Source: Iocasia fonsfrigidae (GTDB lineage Bacteria > Bacillota > Halanaerobiia > Halanaerobiales > DTU029). From it: a stretch of 64,000 bases of DNA. Within the stretch, counting starts at the first letter, position 1. Each line of letters begins with the position of its first letter. The stretch spans positions 3,266,137 through 3,330,136 of the forward strand of contig NZ_CP046640.1 of NCBI RefSeq assembly GCF_017751145.1, written 5' to 3'. The notes beneath the pieces were generated by a model, which was not told the DNA's origin, ran no database searches, and was given only the letters and a program-made list of their open reading frames with translations. Below, one piece after another: positions 31,069-35,060 of the stretch. Position numbers and translations under genes: made by a program.

Positions 31069-31296
31069 AAAAGCCCACATCCCTATTACAGAGACGAAGG
31101 CCCGCGTTTCCACTCTGTTTGGCCAGGGCTTACCCCTGATACCCAACTTAATAAATAATGATAACGGCTTTCACCGTAACTCCCTACTATAATTCAGGAA
31201 TTAAACTCCAGGATGCATAAGGATATACAATCTATAGATTACTTCCAGCCTTTGATAATCCTCTCTGAGATAGAAAACTTATATCCTCTCTTCCCA
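31069..31296 (-). ncRNA. T-box riboswitch upstream of cysS
   Basis: The minus-strand RNA has the AGAGAGGAT bulge region and the apical GGCTGGAAG loop of stem I. A TGC triplet (31215-31217) within TATGCATCC is a plausible cysteine specifier. The conserved T-box sequence AGAGTGGAAACGCG is at 31103-31116. The terminator helix is made by GCCTTCGTCTCT and AGGGATGTGGGC (about 31074-31102) followed by a U-run. It lies about 135 bp upstream of cysS on the same strand. Confidence 0.88.
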
Positions 31297-31475
31297 TCAA
31301 TATTATTAATATATTTTCTTCTTATATAATAATATATACTTTTAACAGGTATTTGTAAAGTATTTTTCAGATAACAATAGTCGATAATTTCCTCTGCCCA
31401 TAAAAATAAAACTACAGGATAGATTTCTTTATATGTCTACCCTGCAGCATTTAATTTGCCTTTCTAAAGTTTAAA

Positions 31476-32945
31476 CTAATTAACCATTTCAAGGGCACTA
31501 TCCAAACGTTTCTCTACTTCATCTAAACCCAGAATATAAATTACATGATTTAACTCCGGTCCTGAGTTTAAGCCAGTGAGAGCTACCCTTGTTGGATGAT
31601 AAATAGTCCTGGCTTTTACAGGCAAATTTTTCCTCATTATGTTAAAAATTTTATTTATTGAATCAGGGTTAAATTCCTCCAGTTCCCTGAGTTTTTCTTT
31701 AAGGGTTGTAAAAACCAGTTCCACATTTTCTCCCTTAAATTCTTCAACAGCCTCTTTTTTATCCGCAAATTCCAGTTCTTTGAAGAAAAGTTCAGCCTCA
31801 TAAGGTATCTGGGACAGATAATCAACCTTGTTCCTGCTAACCTCTATAACCCTTTTTACCCATTCATATTTTTCATCTGATACATCATCACTAATGTATC
31901 CAGCATCTTTTAAATACGGAATAGATAATTCAACAATCCTATCCAGGTCTGCCTCTCTGATATATTTACCATTCATCCAGTTTAGTTTTTCAACATCAAA
32001 CACAGCAGGACTTTTATTAACATCTGCAATATCAAAATGAGATATGATCTCTTCCCTTGACATTATTTCCTGATCATCCTTTGCTGACCAGCCGAGTAGT
32101 GATAAAAAATTAAATAGAGCTTCAGGGAGATAACCATTTTCTCTATATTCCCCAATATATACGGTATCACTATCACTACGTTTTTTCAATTTGGCCTTAT
32201 TCTCATCAAGTATTAATGGGAGATGTGCAAACCTAGGTAAATCAAAACCAAGAGCCTCATAAATCAATAACTGTTTAGGGGTATTTGATATATGATCTTC
32301 TCCTCTGATAACCTGACTTATTTTCATTAAAGCATCATCAATAACTACAGCAAAATTATATGTAGGCATTCCATCTGATTTGTAGATAATGAAATCATCA
32401 AGCACACTGGTATTAAAGGATATTTTACCTCTAATAATATCATCAATGATTATCTCTCTATCCTCATCAGGAACTTTAAACCTGATAACAGGATTCCTAC
32501 CTTCTTTTTTATATTTTTCAACATCTTCTGCAGACAAGGTACGGCAGTGTTGGTTATAACGAGGCATTTCACCCTTGCTGGCAGCCTCTTCCCTCATTTT
32601 ATCTAATTCTTCAGGTAAACAGTAACAATAATACGCTTTACCTTCTTCCAGTAGTTTCTCAGCATATTTCTGGTATATATCTATTCTTTCTGACTGCCGG
32701 TAAGGACCATAATCCCCACCAATACCTACACCTTCGTCAACATCAAGTCCAAGCCACTTCATCTCTTTTAGGATTATCTCTTCAAACTCTTTAGTGGACC
32801 TTTCCAGGTCTGTATCTTCAATCCTTAAAACTAGTTTCCCCTTATTTTTCCTGGCCCACAGCCAGTTAAATAAGGCAGTACGCATATTACCGATATGGAT
32901 CTTACCTGTCGGACTGGGAGGAAAACGCAAACGCATTCCTGACAT
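31476..32945 (-). CDS. gltX: Glutamyl-tRNA synthetase
   Basis: Class Ic synthetase of 489 residues from MSGMRLRFPPSPTGKIHIGN. HIGN stands in the HIGH position near residue 17, and the nucleotide-binding loop reads KAKLKKRSD near residue 240 instead of the usual KLSKR. The C-terminal anticodon-binding domain is helical. The ATG at 32945 is preferred because GAGGAG is eight bases upstream. It lies downstream of the CBS-HutP gene and may be controlled by the structured spacer between them. Confidence 0.94.
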   Translation of the reverse strand: MSGMRLRFPPSPTGKIHIGNMRTALFNWLWARKNKGKLVLRIEDTDLERSTKEFEEIILKEMKWLGLDVDEGVGIGGDYGPYRQSERIDIYQKYAEKLLEEGKAYYCYCLPEELDKMREEAASKGEMPRYNQHCRTLSAEDVEKYKKEGRNPVIRFKVPDEDREIIIDDIIRGKISFNTSVLDDFIIYKSDGMPTYNFAVVIDDALMKISQVIRGEDHISNTPKQLLIYEALGFDLPRFAHLPLILDENKAKLKKRSDSDTVYIGEYRENGYLPEALFNFLSLLGWSAKDDQEIMSREEIISHFDIADVNKSPAVFDVEKLNWMNGKYIREADLDRIVELSIPYLKDAGYISDDVSDEKYEWVKRVIEVSRNKVDYLSQIPYEAELFFKELEFADKKEAVEEFKGENVELVFTTLKEKLRELEEFNPDSINKIFNIMRKNLPVKARTIYHPTRVALTGLNSGPELNHVIYILGLDEVEKRLDSALEMVN

Positions 32946-33021
32946 TCTATCCACTCCTCTAACTATTTTTTTTCAAGTATAATATATATTTATCAGTATA
33001 TCTATTATTCCATAAAATAAT

Positions 33022-33102
33022 GTCTTATCCAAGACCTCCAACGGCCTCGATGGCCTAGTACTGGCCTCATCCTTGCGTATATAATATAAGACCTCTATAT
33101 TA
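33022..33102 (-). promoter_or_regulatory. Structured spacer between the CBS-HutP gene and gltX
   Basis: In the transcript a hairpin TAATAT...ATATTA (33082-33102) carries GAGGTCTT in its loop and overlaps the stop codon. A GC-rich stretch of GGCC repeats follows (33036-33070). A second GAGGTCTT then forms a hairpin GTCTT/AAGAC (33022-33035) followed by a U-rich tract. The single AAGAC can pair with either GTCTT, so alternative folds are possible. Confidence 0.4.
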
Positions 33103-33883
33103 CACTGGTACCCACAGTTAATTGTTCTGGACCATCTACCAGGGCATGGCCAAACTTACCAAATATTGCTGCCGCTATATGGCCTTCCCCACGGACGATA
33201 GCTATTTTAAACCCACCACCAAGTCCCGGATTTATCAAGGCAAGCTGGCTGTACGCATCTTTTACAGCATTGGAAATAGCTATCTTCTCCCGTGAATTTT
33301 CAGAAATAACCCCACGGGCAATTGCTGCAACTGTAGTGCTCTCCCTTAACTTAATAGGTAATTTCTCTGCACTGGCACCTGTCTGGGTGATAGCCCCCTT
33401 ATAGCCATACCCCTTAATTTTCTCCAGCCAGTATTCTTCATATTCACGGCTCCTGGTCATAGCCAGATAAATTGCTGAACTCTCTGGTGTTATGGTCCTC
33501 TTTTCCATAGCCCTTTCATTTTCTTCATCTTTAAGATAACCAGATACTATATCATCTGCTGTTACAATCCCCACCAGTTTATGATCATCATTAAGTACAG
33601 GCAGACCACCGATATGATTATCAGAGAGATGGCGCGCTGCCTCCTGCACAGTCGTATCCAGGCTAATCGTAATTATATCTTCTGACATAAACCTAGTTAT
33701 CGAAGCATTTAGTTCATGTTCAACTACCAGGTCACCATCACTTACCATCCCAATCACTTTACCATCTTCAACTACTATTAACCTTCCAATCTTATTTAGT
33801 GACATAAGTTTCTCAGCTTCAAATACTGTTGCCTCAGGATTTATTGTGATCGGATTATCTGACATGATATCCTTTACTAGCAT
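33095..33883 (-). CDS. CBS-domain pair fused to a HutP-like domain
   Basis: 262 residues. Residues 1-115 form two CBS motifs (MLVKDIMSDNPITINPEAT... and MSEDIITISLDTTVQEAA...), a module that usually binds adenine nucleotides. Residues 130-262 resemble HutP, the histidine-responsive RNA-binding antiterminator: GVISENSREKIAISNAVKD, GFKIAIVRGEG and AAAIFGKFGHALVDGPEQL. By eye alignment the three metal-ligand histidines of Bacillus HutP (73, 77, 138) are Ile, Asn and Gln here. The gene sits between ispF and gltX. I infer a nucleotide-sensing RNA-binding regulator; the target is unknown. Confidence 0.7.
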   Translation of the reverse strand: MLVKDIMSDNPITINPEATVFEAEKLMSLNKIGRLIVVEDGKVIGMVSDGDLVVEHELNASITRFMSEDIITISLDTTVQEAARHLSDNHIGGLPVLNDDHKLVGIVTADDIVSGYLKDEENERAMEKRTITPESSAIYLAMTRSREYEEYWLEKIKGYGYKGAITQTGASAEKLPIKLRESTTVAAIARGVISENSREKIAISNAVKDAYSQLALINPGLGGGFKIAIVRGEGHIAAAIFGKFGHALVDGPEQLTVGTSVI

Positions 33884-33886
33884 GAT

Positions 33887-34369
33887 TTATCCCCTTTCAT
33901 TACTCTCAATTAAAACAACAGCCTGGGCAGCCATTCCCTCTTCCCTTCCAACAAACCCAAGCCCCTCAGTAGTTGTTGCCTTCATATTAATCCTCTTTTT
34001 ATTGATCTGTAAAACCTCGGCATACTTACTAATTATTTTATTATAATACGGTGATATTTTCGGTTTTTCTGCCATAAGTACTAAATCAATATTTTCAATC
34101 CTATATTCTTCTTCCATAAGTAATTTATAGACCTCATCCAGTAATAATAAGCTATTGATATTCTTATAACGCTGATTACTATCTGGAAAATGTCTTCCTA
34201 TATCACCTTTAGCCATAGCACCTAAAATAGCATCCATTAAGGCATGTGTCAGCACATCTGCATCTGAATGCCCCATCAAACCATATTGATAAGGAATATG
34301 TATCCCGGCTATTATCAACGGCCGGTCCTTTTTAAATCCATGAACATCAAAACCTAAACCTACTCTCAC
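33887..34369 (-). CDS. ispF: 2-C-methyl-D-erythritol 2,4-cyclodiphosphate synthase
   Basis: MEP-pathway enzyme of 160 residues. The metal-binding GFDVHGF and GHSDADVLTHALMDAILGA motifs are present, and TTTEGLGFVGREEGMAAQA closes the active site. The start is GTG at 34369, eight bases after CAGGAG and one base after ispD. It makes the isoprenoid precursor ring compound after IspD and IspE. Confidence 0.95.
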   Translation of the reverse strand: MRVGLGFDVHGFKKDRPLIIAGIHIPYQYGLMGHSDADVLTHALMDAILGAMAKGDIGRHFPDSNQRYKNINSLLLLDEVYKLLMEEEYRIENIDLVLMAEKPKISPYYNKIISKYAEVLQINKKRINMKATTTEGLGFVGREEGMAAQAVVLIESNERG

Positions 34370-34370
34370 T

Positions 34371-35060
34371 TTATCTTCTCCTGTTCTCAAGTATACTTTC
34401 TGCTATAAACATATCTTCAGGGGTAGTTATCTTAATATTTTCCTCTGAGCCACTAATAATCTTAACCTGATATCCTAAGAACTCAACCAGTGCTGCATCA
34501 TCTGTAACCTTTAGGTCACTAGCTACCTCCTGATGTGCCTTCATAATAAGTTCTCTGCTAAAGGCCTGGGGTGTCTGGATAGAAACCAATTCTCCTCTAT
34601 CCAGGGTCTCAAGGACATAACCCTTCCCATCCACCCTTTTTATAGTATTTTTAGGTTTTACCCCCACGCTAACTGCATCATTTTCCTTAACAGTAAGTAT
34701 AACCCTTTCTACAACAGAAACCGGCAAAATCGGTCGAGCACCATCATGAATTATAACATAATTAATTGCTGGTGAAAAGACCCTTAAACCAGCAAAAACC
34801 GATTCGCGCCTGGTCTCTCCCCCAGCAATTATTCTGATCTTTTTATTATTAAAATATTTGTTTATAACCTTTTCCCTGCAGTACTTTATTTCTTCCTGCC
34901 TGACAACAACAATTATCTCTTTAATCTGAGGATTGTCAGAAAACAGGGCAATAGTATGGGCAAGAACAGGACGATCAGCCAGACCTAAATACTGTTTATT
35001 AGTCTGGCTATTCATCCTTGAACCCTGACCTGCTGCAGGTATCACAACTCCTATAGACAT
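34371..35060 (-). CDS. ispD: 2-C-methyl-D-erythritol 4-phosphate cytidylyltransferase
   Basis: MEP-pathway enzyme of 229 residues. The nucleotide-binding VIPAAGQGSRMNSQTNKQYL is at the N-terminus, followed by VIIHDGARPIL near residue 100 and LKVTDDAALVEFLG near 185. It forms CDP-methylerythritol. Coupled to ispF. Confidence 0.96.
   Translation of the reverse strand: MSIGVVIPAAGQGSRMNSQTNKQYLGLADRPVLAHTIALFSDNPQIKEIIVVVRQEEIKYCREKVINKYFNNKKIRIIAGGETRRESVFAGLRVFSPAINYVIIHDGARPILPVSVVERVILTVKENDAVSVGVKPKNTIKRVDGKGYVLETLDRGELVSIQTPQAFSRELIMKAHQEVASDLKVTDDAALVEFLGYQVKIISGSEENIKITTPEDMFIAESILENRRR

Follow-up and report, generated by a model that had tools for sequence, protein, structure and literature searches.

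A CBS-pair protein with a HutP-fold domain, probably an undescribed regulator, holds one genomic place across Halanaerobiia and other Firmicutes

In a 64,000-nucleotide stretch of the Iocasia fonsfrigidae genome (the window), we find a gene, cbs-hutP, whose product joins a pair of CBS domains to a HutP-fold domain (Table 1). Since the gene holds one genomic place in many Firmicutes families and its HutP half is near-frozen, CBS-HutP is probably an undescribed regulator. We are aware of no earlier description of a HutP protein regulated by CBS domains, no literature joining HutP and 'CBS domain' was found among open-access papers and, as far as we can tell, the combination and its conservation are undescribed, while its separate parts are known. 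The reading that we favour, at a little less than even confidence, is that of a regulator that senses nucleotides and whose HutP-fold head engages a conserved partner, most probably an RNA.

Table 1 Features of the cbs-hutP locus, in window positions
Feature	Position	Strand	Description
cbs-hutP gene	33095..33883	-	262 aa, CBS-CBS-HutP
CBS domain 1	33713..33883	-	residues 1-57; signature GMVSDGD; G45 and D51 at least 98% conserved
CBS domain 2	33536..33712	-	residues 58-116; signature GIVTADD; G105 and D111 at least 98% conserved
Linker between CBS pair and HutP	33491..33535	-	residues 117-131; variable, mainly helix in the model
HutP-fold domain	33098..33490	-	residues 132-262; metal-ligand positions are I201, N205 and P252
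ispF	33887..34390	-	stops 3 nt short of cbs-hutP; constant neighbour on the upstream side
ispD	34371..35060	-	constant upstream neighbour
gltX	31476..32954	-	usually next downstream; several other families have a murA-like gene there
Dispersed structured repeat	33015..33094	-	core 33043..33055, in the cbs-hutP/gltX gap
T-box leader	31087..31309	-	upstream of cysS

Both modules were recognised by Pfam in the same 262-residue protein: HutP (PF09021) at E 2.1e-32 and 112.5 bits, against a cut-off of 25, in a match that spans residues 136-258 and profile positions 4-124 of 128, and two copies of the CBS domain at E 5.3e-32 and 110.4 bits. Template-free AlphaFold models were made of the full-length protein (pLDDT 84) and of the HutP half alone (pLDDT 86.7). 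A Foldseek search with the latter yielded five matches at E <0.001, all of them HutP (1e-7 to 4e-6) and followed by the next at 1.2e-2; VIA-align superposed it on the HutP structure 1vea with a Z score of 18.0 (126 residues, 2.1 Å), the next fold reaching 7.2. The full-length model matched CBS pairs including those of AcuB, MJ0922, OpuCA and CcpN. Single-sequence searches of the PDB with the protein found no HutP, which was recovered by the profile search alone. The original prediction, read from the DNA sequence, had proposed an N-terminal CBS pair and a HutP-like C-terminal half, with structure prediction against both folds as a check; profile matches and models bear out both halves of it, and sequence and predicted fold together place the protein in PF09021.

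It had also suggested a survey of this architecture in Halanaerobiales, and the surveys that we ran show it to be widespread. A search of the class found HutP in 53 of 59 Halanaerobiia genomes, 49 of the 53 having the long CBS-HutP form (one of these cut short), by a count tallied by hand from the table. Across the phylum, 398 genomes were sampled, and a profile of the HutP half of CBS-HutP matched 36 of them with E values of 1e-59 or lower, the next match outside the family standing at 1.6e-13 if a piece of a split copy is disregarded. The carriers are Halanaerobiia and eight other families of the phylum (f36, f50, f59, f68, f90, f97, f112 and f121), and every full-length copy in the survey is an open frame of at least 256 aa. 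In a tree of HutP domains, a split with SH-aLRT 94 separates the CBS-HutP family from the PDB proteins and from two further branches, A and B, which indicates one family of single origin.

Bacillus HutP is an RNA-binding antiterminator that needs L-histidine and a metal held by His73, His77 and His138; to our knowledge, HutP is known from one such histidine-triggered antiterminator. We read the metal positions from an alignment of 145 HutP domains and two PDB sequences, in which His73 corresponds to Ile201, His77 to Asn205 and His138 to Pro252, the last equivalence being uncertain because the loop alignment could shift. The three residues had been given as Ile, Asn and Gln in the original prediction, which was right about the absence of the histidines and about the first two replacements, but its Gln is Q254, two residues further on. 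The 65 domains of the CBS-HutP family have Met, Ile, Leu, Ser or Val at position 73; 59 have Asn at 77, and at 138 there are 58 with Pro and a single one with His, so that His73 and His77 are gone throughout (65/65) and His138 in 64/65. Of the residues that we take to contact histidine in Bacillus HutP, Glu139 alone is kept. With 73, 77 and 138 all substituted, the protein lacks the metal ligands of the histidine/metal-activated antiterminator; it lies outside that group and inside the HutP domain family.

The loop that carries Pro252 also holds the invariant His246 and Glu253, the latter equivalent to Glu139 of HutP. A histidine- and metal-dependent antiterminator of the Bacillus type with relocated ligands could thus be imagined, as His246, Asp250 and Glu253 are near-invariant and occupy the loop that bears His138 in HutP; His246 is, however, the sole invariant histidine of the HutP-fold domain, and the three canonical positions are replaced. 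We also considered a link with histidine degradation and rejected it, as urocanase is missing from the I. fonsfrigidae genome and, in the class, is present in just 25 of 59 genomes with a distribution that does not follow the CBS-HutP family. This makes a histidine route unlikely for CBS-HutP, and relocation of the ligands very unlikely. Nor does cbs-hutP show an association with histidine utilisation genes, as it lies in the ispDF cluster in every checkable locus.

Loss of the metal histidines was originally taken to mean that nucleotide sensing by the CBS pair had replaced histidine and metal sensing, an argument that comparison with the CBS-less branches does not support. Branch A has Gly/Gly at 73/77 in 59/59 domains, with Glu or Asp at 138, and branch B has Arg/Arg in 19/19, with His138 retained. 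Since both have equally lost His73 and His77, the loss is no mark of CBS fusion and cannot alone argue for a takeover by the CBS pair; the alignment indicates instead that it is common among HutP relatives in the phylum. The shorter linker noted originally is real; in the profile alignment, however, it is the Bacillus proteins that are longer here, by residues missing from all three branches, the CBS-less ones included. In many families, branch A genes (L036-L094) stand directly before the chorismate mutase gene aroH, after which come HisC-like or TrpE-like genes; in part of Halanaerobiia, they precede an ABC substrate-binding protein gene. Branch A is perhaps an aromatic amino acid regulator. 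Branch B genes (L095-L114 and L001:1444-1914) precede ABC exporter, LpxK and Kdo/lipid A-type genes, and in family f11 follow HPr kinase. Besides the PDB proteins, two domains alone in the 145-domain alignment keep all three metal histidines (L106:5923-6396 and L110:5959-6396); their genes lie beside oxaloacetate-decarboxylase-beta or carboxyltransferase genes, and no hut genes were recognised next to them.

The two modules of CBS-HutP differ in how far they have diverged. As median identities to the window (Halanaerobiia/other families), the HutP half reaches 87.8/72.5%, the highest of all cluster protein segments compared, and the CBS pair 61.0/34.5%, with CarD at 75.7/57.6%, DisA at 74.6/61.2%, GltX at 66.8/44.9%, RadA at 58.8/50.3% and IspF at 55.4/48.0%; for comparison, the two solved HutP proteins share 59% identity. 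There are 63 near-invariant residues, 57 of them in the HutP half and six in the CBS pair, and four of these six are the glycines and aspartates (G45, D51, G105 and D111) of the G-h-h-T/S-x-x-D signatures, which are at least 98% conserved in 61 sequences. As both nucleotide signatures are conserved, nucleotide binding by the CBS pair is plausible. From the contrast between a near-frozen HutP half and a more variable CBS pair, we infer a head that meets a partner that barely changes and a sensor that evolves more freely.

The genomic place of cbs-hutP is also stable. The order radA-disA-carD-yacL-ispD-ispF-cbs-hutP is kept across families, with the exception of four f59 loci without disA, and the whole radA-disA-carD-yacL-ispDF-gltX-cysS order is conserved. 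By tblastn, IspF lies at most ~450 nt upstream of cbs-hutP in 50 of 54 loci, the window counted. In the remaining four, two contigs start inside cbs-hutP and two loci (L178 and L179) have IspD directly upstream, so that the gene follows ispF or ispD in 52/52 checkable loci. Downstream, gltX is mostly found, with a murA-like gene in several loci. A terminator-like hairpin follows cbs-hutP in some species (L022, L026, L028 and L031), and there the gene therefore groups with ispDF and not with gltX. The T-box leader upstream of cysS in the window scores 90.4 bits (E 1e-19), slightly below Rfam's 93.

In the window, disA precedes ispD at a distance of three genes; this arrangement, together with the presence of a c-di-AMP-bound OpuCA CBS pair among the structural matches of the full-length model, would suit a CBS pair that is a c-di-AMP receptor tied to DisA, and thus a c-di-AMP effector with a HutP-fold output. 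The four f59 loci that have cbs-hutP but no disA in the cluster speak against this; a lone diadenylate cyclase is encoded elsewhere in three of these genomes, and in the fourth, which is 90% complete, none was seen. Moreover, as radA and disA stand in this order throughout the phylum in general, the linkage to disA is weak evidence, and we regard a c-di-AMP effector as unlikely.

HutP as characterised so far assembles into a hexamer and recognises RNA with NAG repeats (PMC7430163). In the gaps that precede gltX, carD and yacL, we detected no NAG array that is conserved between orthologues. The leaders before carD and yacL were considered as a conserved target and set aside, as no shared NAG array was seen in them; a pair of elements resembling a promoter (TTGAC/TATAAT) is conserved in the disA-carD gap, and some species have terminator-like hairpins between carD and yacL. 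NAG-like triplets in the cbs-hutP/gltX gap were likewise rejected as the protein's own RNA target, being absent from orthologous gaps and part of a dispersed genome repeat. The core of this repeat, GGCCATCGAGGCC, has 20 exact copies in the I. fonsfrigidae genome (the window's and 19 further, L197-L214), and occurs one to five times each in 21 other genomes of the class. Most copies form a ~100-nt hairpin closed by AGAAATTGTCT/AGACAATTTCT (a typical copy has a fold z of -5.3), two sit between tRNA-Ile and tRNA-Ala of rRNA operons, and an Rfam search with the element gave no match. The repeat lies on the + strand in 7/7 copies before 1.9 Mb and on the - strand in 13/13 after 2.3 Mb. A defence role for the locus was discarded, PADLOC having given no match.

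The lack of a cis RNA element in the gaps compared, the very low identity to RNA-binding HutP, and a linkage to ispD/ispF that is constant while the downstream gene alternates between gltX and murA would all be expected if the HutP half had lost RNA binding and the protein were a nucleotide-responsive protein partner tuning IspD/IspF, GltX, MurA or another conserved machine. The HutP half is, however, far more conserved than IspD, IspF and GltX, which would be odd for their partner, and the linkage may be frozen synteny because the entire radA-disA-carD-yacL-ispDF-gltX-cysS order is conserved. We consider such a protein partner rather improbable.

We therefore return to a nucleotide-sensing regulator with a HutP-fold head, which we picture as a cytoplasmic protein of two modules. 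Its CBS pair would bind an adenine nucleotide (AMP, ADP, ATP or related, the choice of ligand being a guess from the motifs) at the two intact signatures, and binding would alter the assembly or exposure of the head. The head would then bind either a slowly evolving RNA target or some other conserved component of the gene-expression machinery, and expression would be coupled to the energy state. Homology to HutP suggests RNA binding by the head, and the ~23% identity to Bacillus HutP means that binding mode or partner may have changed. A more specific version, in which the CBS pair of a nucleotide-gated RNA-binding regulator reads the adenine-nucleotide state and switches the head on a near-invariant RNA (rRNA, tRNA or conserved sRNA) in Halanaerobiia and other Firmicutes, is a possibility to which we give about one chance in three at best.

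CBS-HutP combines a nucleotide sensor with a HutP-fold domain that exceeds the adjacent GltX, RadA, DisA and CarD in conservation, and its gene holds one genomic place across many families. If the protein does bind RNA, it would connect energy state to control at the RNA level in a new way. Given that loss of the metal histidines is common among HutP relatives in the phylum, the histidine switch of Bacillus may represent a special case within a broader fold of regulators.

Compared with HutP of B. subtilis and Geobacillus (PF09021; PDB: 1vea, 1wmq and 4ok9), CBS-HutP has the same fold across the domain, a significant profile match and a shared Glu139, but it is ~23% identical, lacks all three metal histidines, is fused behind a CBS pair, has a shorter linker and shows no tie to histidine degradation. 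Branches A and B share the domain with CBS-HutP and likewise lack His73 and His77, yet they are separate clades of 24.6-26% identity, stand alone without CBS domains and have other neighbour genes. The CBS-pair regulators such as CcpN, and AcuB, which are among the structural matches, resemble CBS-HutP in combining a CBS pair as nucleotide sensor with another domain; the output domain of CcpN is a DNA-binding helix-turn-helix, whereas that of CBS-HutP is a HutP fold.
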